Origin: Nitrososphaeria archaeon
Lineage (GTDB): Archaea; Thermoproteota; Nitrososphaeria; JACIWG01
Length of the DNA stretch: 50,910 nt
Assembly (NCBI GenBank): GCA_029776065.1
Contig: JARVJP010000009.1
Location: 1 to 50,910 of the forward strand
Direction of reading: 5' to 3'
Under the pieces are notes generated by a model. It searched no databases and was not told where the DNA came from. It was given only the letters and a program-made list of their open reading frames with translations. The translations under genes were made by a program, and so were the position numbers. This document shows positions 16,631-37,822 of the stretch, one piece after another; position 1 is the first letter of the stretch, and each line of letters opens with the position of its first letter.

Positions 16631-16895
16631 TTACTGACTATGGTTAGATAATTCTTCGATCAGATCCTCTGTTGCACGCTCGATGGTCTGATAGCTGTTG
16701 AAAGCAGGCCTCCAACCGAGAGACTTTAACGAGTTTAAACCAATCTTTACCTAAAGAATTCCTTAGGTTCTCTAACCTGCCCTCTTCCAAGTTGTCTAGT
16801 ACCGAGACCCTGTAGCCTTTAGAGATTAGGACTTCGACAAGGTGGCTTCCGATGAATCCTGCCCCACCCGTCACAAGCACATCCATCTTATACAC
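16631..16895 (-). pseudogene. NAD-dependent sugar epimerase/dehydratase remnant with a large internal deletion
   Basis: The first 50 or so codons encode an intact Rossmann start ([18 protein letters not shown]). The sequence then jumps, with a frame change, to the family C-terminus read in another frame ([20 protein letters not shown], ending at TAA 16631-16633). About 200-230 residues of the SDR core, including the catalytic Tyr-Lys, are missing. The gene is dead. It begins 3 nt after the small gene at 16899 and is related to the intact epimerase at 17171-18088. Confidence 0.85.
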
Positions 16896-17170: not shown

Positions 17171-18088
17171 TTAAGATTCAGCGTGTATGGTCTTCCTCAG
17201 GCCTTCCTCTAGTGTCGTCTGAGGGGCGTAACTTAGAATCTTCTTAGCCTTTGATATGTCAGCACAGCTATGCACGATATCTCCTTCTCTAGGTGGAAGG
17301 TGTAGTGGGACAACTGGTCTACCCATTATTTTAGTGACAAGACCTGCGAGCTCATTTATACTTGTCTGTTTCCCCGAGCCTATGTTATATGTTTCTTCAG
17401 CTTCAGAGACGAGTGCTCTAACGATGTATTCCACCACATCCCCAACATATATGAAGTCCCTAGTCTGATCTCCAGAACCATATATTATTGGAGGCTGGTT
17501 CTGACCTACTCTCCTAATGAACTGGGTGATAACACCAGCGTATTGGTTACGACCCTGTCTCGGACCATACACATTAAACAGCCTTAAGATGGTTGTCTTC
17601 AAAGCCTTCCTTTGGCTATACATCCTACAATGCCGTTCAGCAGCCAGCTTACTTTCAGCGTATGGGGAAATCGGGTTTAACGGGTGGCCTTCGCTAACAG
17701 GTAAGCTTATAGGGTTACCGTATACAGCGCATGAAGAGACGAATACGAACTTCCCCACACCTGCCTTAGATGACTCGTTTAAGAGGGCTAGGGTGCCGTT
17801 CACGTTCACGTCAAAGTATAGGTTAGGAAACTTCATTGACTCGCTTACGCTAACCAAGGCAGCTAGGTGGGCGACATAGTCAACATCCTTAGTGACCCTT
17901 TTTAATACACCCTTATCCCTTACATCACCTTGGACAAAGTTAACGCTTTGCAACACCTTGGAGAGGTTCAACTTCTCCCCTGCGCTTAAGTTATCGACGA
18001 CGATCACATCGTATCCTAAGCCAAGAAGCCTCTCCACTAAATGGCCTCCGATAAAGCCTGCGCCACCGGTTACAAGAACCCTAGTCAA
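17171..18088 (-). CDS. NAD-dependent sugar epimerase/dehydratase (UDP-glucose 4-epimerase-like)
   Basis: This is a 305-residue extended short-chain dehydrogenase. The NAD-binding motif [12 protein letters not shown] is at the N-terminus. The catalytic triad is seen in VSSCAVYG (Ser) and SPYAESK (Tyr and Lys), and the C-terminal RDFIYVGDVV and YNIGSGKQTSI bind the nucleotide sugar. The family acts on UDP- or GDP-sugars; GalE-like 4-epimerisation is the best guess. It lacks the STDEVYG signature of dTDP-glucose dehydratase. It probably serves surface glycan synthesis with the flippase and nucleotidyltransferase nearby. Confidence 0.88.
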   Translation of the reverse strand: MTRVLVTGGAGFIGGHLVERLLGLGYDVIVVDNLSAGEKLNLSKVLQSVNFVQGDVRDKGVLKRVTKDVDYVAHLAALVSVSESMKFPNLYFDVNVNGTLALLNESSKAGVGKFVFVSSCAVYGNPISLPVSEGHPLNPISPYAESKLAAERHCRMYSQRKALKTTILRLFNVYGPRQGRNQYAGVITQFIRRVGQNQPPIIYGSGDQTRDFIYVGDVVEYIVRALVSEAEETYNIGSGKQTSINELAGLVTKIMGRPVVPLHLPPREGDIVHSCADISKAKKILSYAPQTTLEEGLRKTIHAES

Positions 18089-29703: not shown

Positions 29704-30084
29704 TTATTTGCCGAATCCTACGCCATAGCATAGGAAACCTAGTTTGTCTGCTTCTTTTGGGTTTAGTGCTCTTCTTCCATCGATTATGGATGGTTTGCTA
29801 GCCATTAACTTCTTGATTTCTGGGAGGTTTAGGTTTTTGAGTTCTGTTGGATCGTAGACGGTGACGGGGGCGTTTAGGCTTATGAGTTTTCGGATGATTG
29901 GCTTATCTGGACTGAGCCTTGAGTCGTCGACGTTAGCTTTATAGGCGGTTCCTAGTATGGCTATTCTGCTGTTCTTGACGGTTTTTCCTGCATTTTTTAA
30001 TGCTTTTGTAATTAGTTTCACGATGTGGTTAGGCATTTGATCGTTGATTTTTCGAGCGGTTTTGATGATGTGGTGGTCTATGGG
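29704..30084 (-). pseudogene. UDP-glucose/UDP-N-acetylhexosamine 6-dehydrogenase, C-terminal fragment
   Basis: About 125 codons of the C-terminal NAD(P)-dependent sugar dehydrogenase domain remain: ARKINDQMPNHIVKLI, then SRIAILGTAYKANVDDSR and VTVYDPTE. The N-terminal Rossmann domain and the catalytic Cys/Lys part are absent. At its upstream end the frame runs directly into a VapC remnant (after residue 29 of the open frame), so a recombination junction lies near 30084. The fragment is non-functional. Confidence 0.82.
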
Positions 30085-30390
30085 TTTGGATTTGAGGACT
30101 TTGGCTGTAGCGGCTGCGAAGGCGTCTGCAAGGCGATAATGCATGCTTACCTTTGATTTTGGCGACTTCACGCCATAGTTCGTTATCTTCTATTGGAACA
30201 ACCTTTAGGCCGTACAGGCGGAGGTTTCTCTGCTTCTCCCCAGCTAATTTAGGTTCTACTCGATGCAGGATATAGTAGATCTCAGTAAGTTTAGTATATT
30301 CATGTAGCCTTCAGCGTCTCCGTTTCGAACTTTTTCGAGGTTGTCCCTAACAATTTCTTCTCCTTCTACCTAGGCGAAGAAGAAGGTAGA
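30085..30390 (-). pseudogene. VapC-type PIN toxin remnant with several frame lesions
   Basis: Pieces in three frames join into one PIN protein: VEGEEIVRDNLEKVRNGDAE with YMNILNL, then EIYYILHRVEPKLAGEKQRN, then LRLYGLKVVPIEDNELWREV with AKIKGKHALS, and finally LADAFAAATAKVLKSK. Between them lie at least two frameshifts, plus a TAG at 30370-30372. This family-like order is convincing for a dead VapC. Its last piece is fused in frame to the dehydrogenase fragment. Confidence 0.75.
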
Positions 30391-31549: not shown

Positions 31550-32407
31550 CTAAACTATGTGGCCCTTTTCAATTAGGTAGTCGTGAAGAGCTTCTGCCCA
31601 GCCTTTCATTTCGATCCCATATTTGTGAAGTTTCACAGTTGCCAAGGCTGAGAAAAGTGGTCTTCTCGCCTTCATCTGAAGTTGGTAGGTCTTTATCGGG
31701 GTTAGATTCGGGGTTAAGCCTGTTATCTTAAAGATTTCTTGGGCAAACTGGAACCAGGTGCAATAACCGCTGTTTGTGACATGGTAGATGCCGTGTGGAA
31801 CCTCCAACTCTATTATCCTTTTTATGGCGTTAGCGGCTTCCATAGTGTATGTGGGAGTTATCCACATGTCATCGACCACACGTATTGGCTCGCCTTTCTT
31901 AGCCTTCATTACCATCGTTTCAACGAAATTCCCCCCTTTGCCACTCGCTCCCGCTACACCAAATAGGCTTGCAACCCTGACAATGTAATGTTTAGGGTTT
32001 TGCTTTGTATAAAGCTCCCCAGCCAACTTAGAGATACCATAAGTGTTTATCGGGTTCGGAGCGTCTTCCTCTGTGTATGGCAAATTCTTGGAGCCGTCGA
32101 AGACATAGTCTGTACTCACATATATGATTGTGGAACCTATTTCTTTGGAAATTGTGGTTATGTTCTTAGCTCCAACAGCGTTTACGAGGAAAGTCTTCGA
32201 AGGTTCTTCTTCACATTGATCTGTCTTGTGAAAGGCAGCTGTATTAATAATAATATCAGGGCGATGCTGCTTCAAGACGAGGCAGCTATTGTGATCTGTT
32301 ATCTCTAAGTCTTTATGAGCCAAAGCCACCACCTCATGCTCTTTGCTCAGTGTTTTTACAAGGTCTGTACCAAGCTGCCCAGTTGAACCTATGACCGCCA
32401 CTTTCAT
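31550..32407 (-). CDS. rmlD: dTDP-4-dehydrorhamnose reductase (RmlD-like)
   Basis: The 285-residue NAD(P)-dependent reductase has MKVAVIGSTGQLGTDLV at the N-terminus, INTAAFHKTDQCEEEP, VSTDYVFDG and catalytic Tyr/Lys in NTYGISKLAGE. It would reduce the 4-keto group of a dTDP-4-keto-6-deoxyhexose to the final sugar. The ATG at 32407 overlaps the upstream epimerase stop (ATGA); longer starts lie inside that gene. It is the last gene of the four-gene sugar operon. Confidence 0.9.
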   Translation of the reverse strand: MKVAVIGSTGQLGTDLVKTLSKEHEVVALAHKDLEITDHNSCLVLKQHRPDIIINTAAFHKTDQCEEEPSKTFLVNAVGAKNITTISKEIGSTIIYVSTDYVFDGSKNLPYTEEDAPNPINTYGISKLAGELYTKQNPKHYIVRVASLFGVAGASGKGGNFVETMVMKAKKGEPIRVVDDMWITPTYTMEAANAIKRIIELEVPHGIYHVTNSGYCTWFQFAQEIFKITGLTPNLTPIKTYQLQMKARRPLFSALATVKLHKYGIEMKGWAEALHDYLIEKGHIV

Positions 32408-33420
32408 AATATTACCCCATTTATTTCGATGGACTTGATCAGCGCATTCATCTCCAAGAGCTGCTTGTACCACTTTACCGTTATCGTCTTAGGGTCATCT
32501 GCAACTATTCGCCCATCCTTTAGGGCTTCGAATATCTCCTTTGCACCATCCCTTGGCGTGTATTCTGGTTTGAATGATAATTTCTCCTTTATCTTGTTGA
32601 AGTTAACCCTATAACTTCTTTTATCAGGTGAACCATACCATTCATAATTGAATGGTATGTTGATCGATTCTGCTATAATCTTAGCTAAGTCAAATATTTG
32701 AATATTCTGATCGTCACTTCCAACATTAAACACTTGCTCGTTGACCAAGTCTTGTTCTGATTCAAGAACCTCGATAAACGCCTTAGATGTGTCTCTTACG
32801 TGTACGAATGGCCGCCACTGTCTTCCATCTCTCATTATCGGTATTTTGCCATTTTTGTAGAAACCGAGAACCATGCCGTTAACCGCCAAATCGAGCCTCA
32901 TCCTAGGAGAGTACCCGTAGACCGTGGCCTGCCTAAGCACCGTCACCGTAAAAGATTCGTCTGCTAGAGGCAATATTTCCTTTTCAGCTAAAACATTAGC
33001 CTTCGCGTACGTTGTCAACGGGTTTAAAGAGGACTCCTCAGACAACACGTCTTCTTGGAAGCCATAAACACTACAAGTACTTGCGAGCACGTATCTTCTC
33101 ACCCTATACTTCTTTGATAGCTGTGCCACTCTTACTCTTCCCTTATAGTTTATCTCCAATGTTTTCTGTGGGTCAAGTTCACCACTCGGATCATTTGATA
33201 ATGAGGCTAGATCTATGACTGCATCAACACCTTCAAAAACCTCTGGCTTAAACCATCTTATGTCATCCTTAATAATTCGCACTTTATCAGCGATATCCTT
33301 TATGGAGTCCATTCCAAAAAAGAATCTATCAAGACAGGTTACGGTGTGACCTTTCTCTAATAGCATGCCGCATAATATGGAGCCTATGTAGCCTGCCCCG
33401 CCTGTGACTAGGACATTCAT
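32404..33420 (-). CDS. NAD-dependent nucleotide-sugar epimerase/dehydratase with altered active site
   Basis: The 338-residue extended SDR has [25 protein letters not shown] and a WRPFVHVRD sugar-binding motif. It occupies the operon slot where RmlB (dTDP-glucose 4,6-dehydratase) is expected, but RmlB hallmarks such as STDEVYG are missing. The catalytic YxxxK motif reads TTYAKAN, with Asn (AAT codon) at the Lys position, confirmed by reading the DNA. It may be an epimerase using a different base, a reductase with altered chemistry, or an impaired enzyme. The stop overlaps the rmlD start. Confidence 0.85.
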   Translation of the reverse strand: MNVLVTGGAGYIGSILCGMLLEKGHTVTCLDRFFFGMDSIKDIADKVRIIKDDIRWFKPEVFEGVDAVIDLASLSNDPSGELDPQKTLEINYKGRVRVAQLSKKYRVRRYVLASTCSVYGFQEDVLSEESSLNPLTTYAKANVLAEKEILPLADESFTVTVLRQATVYGYSPRMRLDLAVNGMVLGFYKNGKIPIMRDGRQWRPFVHVRDTSKAFIEVLESEQDLVNEQVFNVGSDDQNIQIFDLAKIIAESINIPFNYEWYGSPDKRSYRVNFNKIKEKLSFKPEYTPRDGAKEIFEALKDGRIVADDPKTITVKWYKQLLEMNALIKSIEINGVIL

Positions 33421-33450
33421 AAGTGTTAAACCCCTTTTTTAATCTCTTAT

Positions 33451-33954
33451 CTATTTATGTGGTGGGTGGAACCAGTCCCATGGTCTGTTAACTCTTGGGT
33501 CGTTGGTTTTCCCATTGACCAACTGAGGAATGATGGCTGCGTCGTTCCAAGGCCTTCGTTCTTCATCAGGGTCCTTGTAGTCGTATAGTTTCGTGACAAA
33601 GTATACCGTTAGCGATGGTTTGTTGCCAACGGTCTTTGTTCCATGCCAATAGTGCCCTGGTACTCCGACGATTTGTAGCCTGTGCTCGCTTGATATGACC
33701 TCGTCAAGTTCCTTTGTCTCATCGTCGTATGCGCAGATCTTCATAGCGCCTTCCACTACGATAAAGTAGTCCACCTGGCCTCTTAGATGCCTATGCCAAG
33801 CTCTAACCATCCCAGGGTAACTGTATGAGAGGTTTGCTTGGGCGATCCATTCATCGCCTAGAAGTTCCTTCCAATCTTGGCGGAAGATTTCGCAGAAGAA
33901 GCCTCGTTCATCAGGGAGCCTTTTAAGATCGTACACTTTTATTCCCTCTAACAT
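33451..33954 (-). CDS. dTDP-4-dehydrorhamnose 3,5-epimerase-like cupin (RmlC-like)
   Basis: The 167-residue cupin starts LEGIKVYDLKRLPDERGFF and keeps the catalytic His region (MVRAWHRHLRG) and a YDYKDPDEERRPWND segment like the Tyr/Trp region of RmlC. The usual active-site Lys (QxK following the His motif) is replaced: the sequence reads GQVDYF. It may catalyse a single epimerisation or act on a different sugar. It lies 30 nt upstream of the epimerase start and 52 nt downstream of rmlA. Confidence 0.85.
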   Translation of the reverse strand: MLEGIKVYDLKRLPDERGFFCEIFRQDWKELLGDEWIAQANLSYSYPGMVRAWHRHLRGQVDYFIVVEGAMKICAYDDETKELDEVISSEHRLQIVGVPGHYWHGTKTVGNKPSLTVYFVTKLYDYKDPDEERRPWNDAAIIPQLVNGKTNDPRVNRPWDWFHPPHK

Positions 33955-34006
33955 AGAATCTACCTCACAGCATATATGATTAGGTGAGGGTCTTATATTT
34001 TATGAT

Positions 34007-35062
34007 TCAGATTTCAACCTCTGAATAGTCTCCAACATGAAGCTTTACAGCATTCATATTATTTTTCGAGACTTTTGCATTTTTTCCTACAAGACTGTCT
34101 TCGAGCCTATCAATATCCTTTACTGTTACATTATTTAGTATGATCGAGTTCTCTATTGAACTATTCGATATCTCTACACCATCTCCAATGCTGGTGTATG
34201 GCCCGATGAAAGATTTTTGTATGATACAGTTTTTTCCAACTATTGCAGGACCTCGTATTGTACTGTTTACAAGCTTACTGTCTTCTCCCATAGATACTCT
34301 TCCTTCAGCCCTAGATTCTATAAGTGTTCCCAAGATTTCCCTTTCTATATGCCCGTCTAATATTAGGGCATTAGCGTACAATATATCGTCTTTTTTTCCT
34401 GTGTCAAGCCACCATCCTTCAACAAAAGAGTAGCCAACAGTATAGCCTCCTTCAAGCATAAGCTGAAGCGCGTCAGTAATCTCAAGCTCACCACGCCAAC
34501 TAGGCTTAAGACCCTTAATTATCTCGAATACTATGGGCTTGAAAAAGTATACACCTACAAGAGCGTACCTACTCGGTGGAACCTTAGGCTTCTCAACAAG
34601 ACCAGCAAGCCTATTTCCCTCAAACTTTGCAACACCAAACTTAGTTGGATCATCGACCTCCTTCAAAAGAATAAATGCATCAAAGTTCCCTTCAAGAAAA
34701 ATTTCAAGATATCTTCTAATACCATGCTGTAAAAGATTATCACCCAAATATAGTACAAAAGAATCGTCTCCAACAAGATCCCTACACAAGCTTACGGCGT
34801 GAGCGATACCCAAAGGCTTACCCTGAAAAACATATTTTATGCATACGTTAAATCTGCTACCATCACCATAATGCTGTTGAACAAGCTCAGGAAAAGTTTC
34901 ACCCAAAACAATAACAACGTCTTCAATACCCGCATTTTTTAAATCCTCTAACACATATTGGCTAATTGGCTTGTTAGCGACAGGAATAAGCTGCTTTGGG
35001 CCACTGAAGGTTAGGGGCCTAAGCCTAGTGCCAGCACCACCATGTAATATGATACCCTTCAT
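34007..35062 (-). CDS. rmlA: Glucose-1-phosphate thymidylyltransferase, long form with left-handed beta-helix
   Basis: The 351-residue nucleotidyltransferase has HGGAGTRLRPLTFSGPKQL, YLGDN, GLVEKP, GELEITD and WWLDTG. The C-terminal third is a hexapeptide-repeat left-handed beta-helix (VGKNCIIQKSFIGPYTSIGD). Such long RmlA forms are common in archaea. It is the first gene of the operon, with a strong TATA box at 35085-35093 and a probable leaderless start. Confidence 0.92.
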   Translation of the reverse strand: MKGIILHGGAGTRLRPLTFSGPKQLIPVANKPISQYVLEDLKNAGIEDVVIVLGETFPELVQQHYGDGSRFNVCIKYVFQGKPLGIAHAVSLCRDLVGDDSFVLYLGDNLLQHGIRRYLEIFLEGNFDAFILLKEVDDPTKFGVAKFEGNRLAGLVEKPKVPPSRYALVGVYFFKPIVFEIIKGLKPSWRGELEITDALQLMLEGGYTVGYSFVEGWWLDTGKKDDILYANALILDGHIEREILGTLIESRAEGRVSMGEDSKLVNSTIRGPAIVGKNCIIQKSFIGPYTSIGDGVEISNSSIENSIILNNVTVKDIDRLEDSLVGKNAKVSKNNMNAVKLHVGDYSEVEI

Positions 35063-35346: not shown

Positions 35347-36209
35347 TTAGTGGCCTGCCAAGGGTCTGATAGGAAAGATGGGAAGGAAGCGAGAGGTTGC
35401 GGGCTTTGAATATATCTTAAGTTTACCCCTGAAATAGTTCTTTATTATAGCGTGCTGTTCCTTGTTAGAAGATATAGTACTAGATTTGAAAACTTAGAGA
35501 ACGACTTTGAACCATAATGAATTCCAACGTCTATTGGGAGAGATGTTGACCTGAAACCGTAGGACCACAGGCTCAAGGCAAGCTCGGTTTCATCCCAAAA
35601 TGAGAAGATTTCTGGCGAAAAAATGCGTTCTCTAAACTTCAGCACAGGTCTAACCTTCACAATAAATCAGGCTCCTAGAACATACGTCACATATGATACG
35701 GCCTTTGGGCAATCTGATTTTTTAAGACCAAAGTATCTTGGAATAAGGTTAGTGAGAGAGTCGATGAAAAATCTGGCATCCGCTATATGAAGGCCGTCTT
35801 CTTGAAGGTTATAGCCGCCAGCGAGCAAAACGTCATCTCGGCTTTTAAGGAAGCTCACTAAGCCTCTCACAAAATCCTCATTTTTGATTACATAGTCGTT
35901 GTTCATAAATATTACATATTTTGGAAGACTCTTTCTAGACACGTAGCTTTGGAAGCCGAACTCGTTGCCTCCCGCATAACCATAGTTCCTATTCAACTTC
36001 AACGCCGTAATATCCTTTCCAAACTTGGCCTCCATGGCCTCAAAGCTTCTGTCTGTAGAACAGTTGTCGACCACCGCGACATCCAAGTTTTGGTAGGTAA
36101 TGCTTAAGGCACTCTCAATAGATTCATAGACGATAGATTTTAAGGAGTAGGCACTATTATAGTTAAGTGTTAATACGACGACTTCAGGGCTTGGAATTAA
36201 ACCATACAC
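35347..36209 (-). pseudogene. Glycosyltransferase family 2 interrupted by a TGA and a frameshift
   Basis: The N-terminal part has VVVLTLNYNSAYSLKSIV, VVDNCSTDRSF, KLNRNYGYAGGNEFG and FMNNDYV, all typical GT2. At 35667-35669 a TGA stands directly after VTYVLGA, exactly where the family has GAC or GAx (Cys codon position). The same frame then continues for another 70 codons with the expected FWDETELALSLWSYGFRS. Near 35450 a second lesion shifts the frame; the tail HAIIKNYFRGKLKIYSK continues in another frame to a stop at 35347. At least two lesions make this a pseudogene. Confidence 0.85.
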
Positions 36210-36387: not shown

Positions 36388-37695
36388 TTAGCTATTCCGA
36401 TCAGTGTTAACTTCCATAAGCTTTTTTGCTTCTAATAATCTCCTTAGTACCTTTATAGTCATCACAGACCTTTGTTTTAACTGTGGACCCTTTTTTTCAA
36501 GATGCCTCTTTACAAGGTCATAGTTCCTCTCTAATAGAGTAAAGCACTTAATCAGTTTGTTTGCATTTATTTCTTCAATTGGTATAGCAAATTCTTCAAG
36601 CCCTACCATTTCTACAAAACCCTTTTGTTTATGCTCATAGTAAATCGCTATGAATGGAACATTTGCTTTTGCAGCATATACAATAGGATGATACCTAATG
36701 CTGATAACGCAATAAAGTTTAGAAACTATTGCTTGTTGAACATAGGAATTCATTTCTTTAGGAAGGATAAAGATCATTTCTTTATTTAACTTCTGAAAAT
36801 TGGTTAGCTGCATAAATTCCTGATATGCGTATTCGTATCGTTCACCAAAAAGGTGGGGGATCAAAAGAACCTGATAGCCTCTGTTTGTTAAATACATAAG
36901 GACCTTCGTAAAGCTTTCAATAATTCTATTCCTTAAATCCGGAAATTGGGAGTATACTACATGCCATCTTAAGTCCGATATGGTAATCCCAATTACCCTT
37001 TCCTTTTTTAGTTTCTCCAATAGACACTTGACTCCATTTCCATTTGAGTAGACCTCCAAAATATAATTAAAGCCAAGAACATCATCTTGGAATACAGAGT
37101 CTAAAGCAACATAGGCCCTTATTCCTAGTTGTTCTTCGAGATATTTAGCAGAGAAAACGTCTCTAACCACTATAGCCATCGCCTTTTTGAGTATAATTTT
37201 TCTGATAATGTTCCTAATTCTATTTAGAAATGGCCCCATTGAAGGAGCATAAAAGAACACCGGCTTCTTTAAAATTTCTGCTAAAAATAGATCATAAAGA
37301 TAAGGAAGCTCCCATTGAAGCTTTCTTCCATAGATATCCCCGATACTTGGGCCACCCGGTGCGTGAATTATTACATCAGCTTCATTCAGGACCTTTAGAA
37401 AATCGCGGAGTTATTTAGTTAATGCCATTTTCCCAAATGTCATTAGTACTATAAATGCATCAATAAGAAGAAAAAGAGAATAACTTAAGTTTCTTCTAAA
37501 GTTCATTTTACTCCAAAATGAAGGTAATAATTCTACATCTCCATAAGAGGTTTGTGGTGTATTTGCCATAATTATTGCTTTAATTTTCTTGAATGGTAAA
37601 TGGGATCTAATAGAATTAACCATTGCACAAAAAGCCGCTTCGTCACCTCTATTATACCAATGAATGTGTAAAATAAGGCAGTTGATCTTTTTAAT
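36388..37695 (-). pseudogene. Polysaccharide pyruvyl transferase family gene, broken start and nonsense codon
   Basis: One frame covers the entire family: LILHIHWYNRGDEAAFCAMV (start region), GDVELLPSFW, then VIIHAPGGPSIGD, VFFYAPSMGP, VRDVFSAKYLEEQLG and ISIRYHPIVYAAKANVPFIA. A single in-frame TAA at 37411-37413 splits it. Where the initiator ATG is expected the codon is ATT (37693-37695, followed by KKIN), and no other start precedes it. The family adds pyruvate ketals to, or modifies, surface polysaccharides. The 290-residue downstream part retains most of the domain but is unlikely to function. Confidence 0.85.
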
Positions 37696-37822
37696 GGGCG
37701 ATCCCTTCCTATGTTATGACACTTTTTTCATCAGATTAACAAAGTTAGCATACTTGAGAAATTCTTTGGGAATTCCATTTAAAACTTTTCATATATGTTA
37801 TGTTTCTGGATTATATTGTCTT

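Follow-up and report, generated by a model that had tools for sequence, protein, structure and literature searches.

An archaeal rml-type operon in which a probable relative of the C4-dehydrogenase Cj1427 occupies the place of RmlB

What sugar nucleotide is made by an rml-type operon that has no rmlB? The question is raised by four genes on the minus strand of a 50,910-nucleotide stretch of DNA (the window) from a Nitrososphaeria archaeon (NCBI GenBank assembly GCA_029776065.1, contig JARVJP010000009.1), which encode RmlA, an RmlC-like cupin, an extended short-chain dehydrogenase/reductase (SDR) and RmlD. A sequence-only reading had found these genes complete, co-directional and well spaced, had seen no RmlB among them, and had proposed that altered active sites in the cupin and in the SDR might direct the operon to a sugar other than thymidine diphosphate (dTDP)-L-rhamnose. 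The pattern was correctly perceived and its cause was misread: the genes form a conserved variant rml operon with an active-site change. We consider it reasonably probable that RmlB has been replaced here by a nucleoside diphosphate (NDP)-sugar C4-dehydrogenase of the Cj1427 family together with its own clade of RmlD, and that the product is a 6-hydroxy sugar nucleotide.

Inspection of the open reading frames (ORFs) confirmed that the four genes are intact and adjacent, with gaps of 52 bp between rmlA and the cupin gene and of 30 bp between the cupin and SDR genes, and a 4-bp overlap between the SDR gene and rmlD. A profile search of the genome of origin (16 contigs, 1.74 Mb, 95.5% complete) found no rmlB above the TIGR01181 cut-off of 365.1 bits. 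The top match (175.9 bits, window positions 17183-18082) is not a dehydratase, because its motif reads SSCAVYG. A hidden RmlB was likewise rejected, since the three best matches in the genome, the SDR and RmlD of the operon excluded, all lack the TDE motif; they are the GalE-like gene just mentioned, an SDR with FTSSGSVYG (C10:477645) and, at 16719-16880, what remains of an SDR (58 residues). The SDR of the operon itself reaches 76.9 bits against TIGR01181 and carries T115-C116-S117 where dehydratases have TDE, as do its close relatives (T/SCS). With RmlB lacking from operon and genome alike, the suggestion that the product is unlikely to come from the RmlABCD route stands.

The arrangement is not peculiar to this genome. 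The cupin was detected by profile search in 62 of the 398 genomes of the phylum, and many of them have a canonical RmlB gene, above cut-off, immediately after it. Two operon orders are found, rmlA-cupin-RmlB-rmlD and rmlA-cupin-SDR-rmlD. The SDR thus occupies the RmlB slot, and within cupin-bearing genomes the two enzymes exclude each other: 42 have RmlB only, 11 the SDR only and one both (Fisher p 1.5e-6, a guide only, since the genomes are related). In 24 of the 26 genomes carrying the SDR group the search gave no RmlB-like match at E <= 1e-80, which makes the distant dehydratase envisaged by the sequence-only reading unlikely. One of the other two (G196; G numbers denote genomes and L numbers loci) has a contig-end fragment. 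In the other, G062, the match lies above the RmlB cut-off, and the gene (L051, 3444-4316, minus strand) is shortened at its N-terminus: the match begins at profile position 45, TDEVYS is kept, and the NAD-binding glycines are absent in frame. It is divergent from an intact SDR cassette and may possibly be a snapshot of the loss of RmlB after its replacement.

The exchange appears to have involved the reductase as well. RmlA and RmlD of the window pass their equivalog models (TIGR01208, rmlA_long, 483.7 bits for a cut-off of 320.25; TIGR01214, 291.2 bits for a cut-off of 224.05), and RmlD has the motifs STDYVF and YGISK and the Thr/Tyr/Lys triad known from PMC4832382. In the RmlD tree the window protein falls in a separate clade, on a long and fully supported branch, that is found with the SDR only, whereas in the cupin tree members from RmlB operons and SDR operons intermix, with at least three label changes forced by well supported branches. 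RmlB and its RmlD were therefore exchanged jointly, while RmlA and the cupin remained constant. Compared with the archaeal RmlABCD operon for dTDP-L-rhamnose (for instance in G313 and G194, or Agl11-14 of Haloferax, PMC4022621), the window shares RmlA, the cupin epimerase, RmlD and the order and slots of the genes; it differs in having an SDR with TCS and YxxxN for RmlB, and an RmlD of the separate clade.

The missing Lys of the cupin, in contrast, carries no product information. The protein reads HRHLRGQVDYF (HRH-x5-D-x6-G; an HxH...D...H pattern is present), with GQVD in place of QGK. Alignment to the solved RmlC (QGKIIFV) places Asp62 at the lysine position, confirming that the active-site Lys is missing; the active-site His is retained. 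Its best Pfam match is PF14667 (Polysacc_synt_C, the CapF C-terminal cupin; 44.6 bits, gathering cut-off 28.7), followed by PF00908 (RmlC; 41.5 bits, cut-off 27). It thus resembles RmlC and the C-terminal cupin of CapF (Cap5F) in fold and differs from them in its Asp, in standing alone and in scoring below the RmlC equivalog TIGR01221 (36.4 bits, cut-off 155.75). Cupins of RmlB operons fail that model too (39.2 and 32.5 bits), and of 42 cupins examined from RmlB contexts only the diverged L159 lacks the form H-x-H...Q-x-D, which in four has a loop one residue shorter. To judge from these alignments, archaeal operons of the RmlB type normally have the Lys-less cupin as RmlC partner. Because the same form accompanies RmlB and the cupin tree is intermixed, we rejected the idea that the altered cupin signals a new sugar; by itself it gives no argument against rhamnose.

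The nearest solved sequence to the SDR is 6vo6 (Cj1427; 128.7 bits, the next reaching 75.3), and the top Foldseek match of its predicted model (mean pLDDT, the model confidence score, 90) is 6vo8, again Cj1427. Both sequence and model thus place it closer to this C4-dehydrogenase than to GalE or RmlB, and the former label of epimerase is not supported. It is a member of a widespread YxxxN/S subfamily. Cj1427 is the C4-dehydrogenase of GDP-heptose synthesis in Campylobacter; its tightly bound NADH is re-oxidised by 2-oxoglutarate, which yields L-2-hydroxyglutarate, and a 3,5-epimerase and then a C4-reductase follow (PMC10680097). The pathway proposed for the window shares the three-step logic of the C. 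jejuni HS:2 pathway (Cj1427, Cj1430, Cj1428), including a separate 3,5-epimerase acting on a 4-ketosugar; it differs in its RmlA-type activation instead of GDP-heptose, in its RmlD (TIGR01214) reductase, and in the active site of the dehydrogenase, where Asn takes the place of Lys142 and Arg95 has been gained. By analogy, the SDR probably oxidises its sugar without removing oxygen. A precedent for an epimerase type shared between the two operon contexts is given by the Campylobacter 3- and 3,5-epimerases, which accept 4-ketoheptoses of the 6-deoxy (dehydratase-made) and 6-hydroxy types alike (PMC10680097).

The Lys-to-Asn change that had been noted in the SDR is real: the protein reads LTTYAKANVLAE, that is Y138-A-K-A-N142 at YxxxK, where the aligned Cj1427 keeps its Lys (YGIDK). 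Local damage or a sequencing error was rejected, since the Asn/Ser form is fixed across many genomes, in dozens of loci. It is thus no departure of this operon, any more than the cupin form is, and belongs to a whole subfamily in which it is coupled to Arg95. In a survey of 106 non-redundant members of the SDR family, Arg95 is present in 41, all with Asp70 and with Asn, Ser or Cys at position 142, and in none of the 60 members with Lys142; the remaining five have neither (two Asn142, three Arg142). Two Lys142 members that branch next to the Lys-less clade or within it carry Pro95 and Ala95. Within that clade Arg95 is invariant, and position 142 varies between Asn, Ser and Cys. Arg95 lies on helix 4, one turn past the conserved Asn91, at the position that Thr/Ser holds in the usual NxxGT motif; in SDRs this face of the helix generally lies near the catalytic Lys. 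This pattern of residues suggests that Arg95, with Asp70, probably took over the positive charge of the lost Lys; the position of the helix would bring it towards Tyr138 and NAD. Nothing decisive came from the literature on rhamnose operons without RmlB, on SDRs with YxxxN, on lhgO within polysaccharide gene clusters or on the CapF zinc cupin, and no report of such a change was found in the papers that we searched.

Neighbouring genes in related operons lend independent support to the comparison with Cj1427. Four bacterial operons with a Lys-less SDR (G616, G435, G436, G872) contain lhgO, encoding L-2-hydroxyglutarate oxidase (316-546 bits, cut-off 299), alongside rmlA-like and rmlC-like genes; three of these operons have rmlD too. 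Genes annotated as lhgO also occur in Deinococcus operons with the Lys-form SDR. These neighbours fit the chemistry of Cj1427 and not that of a dehydratase or an epimerase, because the latter two are redox neutral and need no such partner. The SDR cassettes of Archaeoglobi and of G572 contain genes for a LutB/LldF-like LUD iron-sulfur protein. Family membership suggests a role for this protein in 2-hydroxyacid oxidation. In these anaerobes the LutB/LldF-like genes sit where other bacteria have lhgO, and their product is a candidate for an anaerobic enzyme oxidising L-2-hydroxyglutarate. Separately, an lhgO gene lies near L281 in G1015.

In the pathway that we propose, RmlA would form dTDP-glucose or a related NDP-hexose, which the SDR would oxidise at C4 with no loss of water. 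The bound NADH would be returned to NAD by reduction of 2-oxoglutarate, or a similar 2-oxoacid, to L-2-hydroxyglutarate, a step extended to the window and to the Bathyarchaeia cassettes by analogy with Cj1427. The cupin would then epimerise C3 and/or C5 of the 4-ketosugar, and RmlD would reduce C4. The product, a 6-hydroxy sugar nucleotide for the surface glycan of the surrounding genes, would in the simplest case be dTDP-L-mannose (dTDP-L-rhamnose with a 6-hydroxyl group) or one of its stereoisomers. We regard an unusual hydroxylated sugar as likely, in place of rhamnose. More weight can be placed on the claim that the RmlB route is not used; the exact sugar, including dTDP-L-mannose from dTDP-glucose, is a guess. 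A wider reading seems to us possible, though short of probable: that an undescribed and widespread SDR subfamily of archaea and bacteria, with the Lys replaced by a helix-4 Arg and His by Asp at position 70, acts as a 2-oxoglutarate-coupled NDP-hexose C4-dehydrogenase and provides an RmlB-free route to 6-hydroxy L-sugars such as dTDP-L-mannose, L-2-hydroxyglutarate being recycled by LhgO or, in some anaerobes, by the LutB-like protein.

Several observations weigh against a C4-dehydrogenase with a relocated charge. An SDR in the RmlB slot could also mean an identical product. Neither in the window nor in the cassettes of Bathyarchaeia did the neighbourhood survey find lhgO or a LUD gene, the own genome offers just a weak LhgO-like match (152.8 bits), and the LutB-like genes score under their equivalog cut-off. 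The association between Arg95 and Lys142 needs only one or two changes on the tree, and a single Lys clade is not rejected (approximately unbiased test, p 0.111). L238 (G528) and L267 (G1015) have Asn142 without Arg95 (His70, Thr95), which the Arg95 idea does not account for. We also know of no activity for any Lys-less member of the SDR family.

The same slot, together with RmlA and a cupin of the type seen in RmlB operons and an RmlD above the rmlD equivalog cut-off, would suit an SDR that is a non-orthologous RmlB, a 4,6-dehydratase whose acid/base pair is new and through which dTDP-L-rhamnose is still made. We hold this to be unlikely: the Asp/Glu of TDE is Cys/Ser in the SDR, its closest relative is a non-dehydrating dehydrogenase, a redox-neutral dehydratase would not require the lhgO seen in related operons, and the RmlD clade is unlike the RmlD linked to RmlB. 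That the SDR is a C4-epimerase, oxidising and re-reducing C4 as GalE does while the cupin and RmlD serve another branch, would agree with GalE being its best NCBIfam match; yet the score, 100.6 bits, is far under the galE cut-off (262.3), the SDR is tightly linked to rmlC/rmlD-type partners in archaea and bacteria, and the lhgO link implies net oxidation, so this is decidedly improbable. Finally, the missing catalytic Lys and the broken state of several adjacent glycan genes might indicate a redox-dead SDR, kept as a structural or substrate-binding relic in a pathway that no longer works or that receives its substrate from an unrecognised dehydratase. We give this very little credence. Tyr138, Ser117 and the motifs SPRMR(L/F)DL and QWRP are retained over large distances; close orthologues are 67-78% identical over their full length, so the features of the operon are far beyond chance; and RmlB is absent from this genome and from nearly all carriers of the SDR.

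Operons of this kind would be automatically annotated as dTDP-rhamnose biosynthesis, since rmlA, rmlC-like and rmlD all match. Should the C4-dehydrogenase reading be true, those annotations would be mistaken in several bacterial phyla as well as in Bathyarchaeia, Archaeoglobi and Nitrososphaeria, and other glycans would be predicted. The residue swap would be a natural case of a catalytic charge relocated to a different helix, within a superfamily of enzymes that is among the largest. The lhgO and LutB-like neighbours would link L-2-hydroxyglutarate oxidation to the making of sugar nucleotides and would point to an anaerobic enzyme for that oxidation.

The features of the operon and the LutB/LldF-like genes are collected in the table. 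For rmlD we rejected the mechanical ORF call at GTG 32473 in favour of the ATG at 32407, which overlaps the SDR stop codon as ATGA. Upstream of rmlA, CAAAAC followed by a TTTTAA box, the latter ending 24 nt ahead of the ATG, would suit a leaderless promoter of archaeal type. The window was also scanned against Rfam and for tRNA genes, with no hits.

Table. Coordinates of the rml-type operon in the window, and of LutB/LldF-like genes in their own loci
Feature	Coordinates	Strand	Basis
rmlA (long form), glucose-1-phosphate thymidylyltransferase, 351 aa	34007..35062	-	TIGR01208
RmlC-like/CapF-C-like cupin, 167 aa, putative sugar 3,5-(or 3-)epimerase	33451..33954	-	PF14667, PF00908, TIGR01221 scores
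Extended SDR in RmlB slot, 338 aa, putative NDP-sugar C4-dehydrogenase (Cj1427 relative)	32404..33420	-	6vo6, Foldseek, conservation
rmlD, NDP-4-ketosugar reductase, 285 aa, T/Y/K triad intact	31550..32407	-	TIGR01214, clade
Putative promoter CAAAAC-TTTTAA	35063..35110	-	sequence inspection
LutB/LldF-like LUD genes in SDR cassettes of anaerobes	L269 5758-6966; L278 3579-4787; L279 2185-3459 (-); L013 7866-9083		

The operon belongs to a region for a surface glycan that also encodes glycosyltransferases and a flippase. Several genes of this region are broken, those listed here all on the minus strand. At 16719-16895, the 58-residue N-terminal remnant of an extended SDR ends in a frame break and adjoins the intact GalE-like gene (17171-18088). 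At 29704-30171, only a C-terminal fragment is left of a nucleotide-sugar dehydrogenase of the UDP-glucose/UDP-N-acetylmannosamine (UDP-ManNAc) type, its N-terminal NAD domain being absent. A family 2 glycosyltransferase (35667-36209) has an in-frame stop after VTYVLGA, beyond which the domain resumes in the same frame, and a polysaccharide pyruvyl transferase (36388-37800) has one after MALTK, its N-terminal part being legible upstream in the same frame. These broken genes suggest a decaying glycan cluster around the intact rml-like operon.

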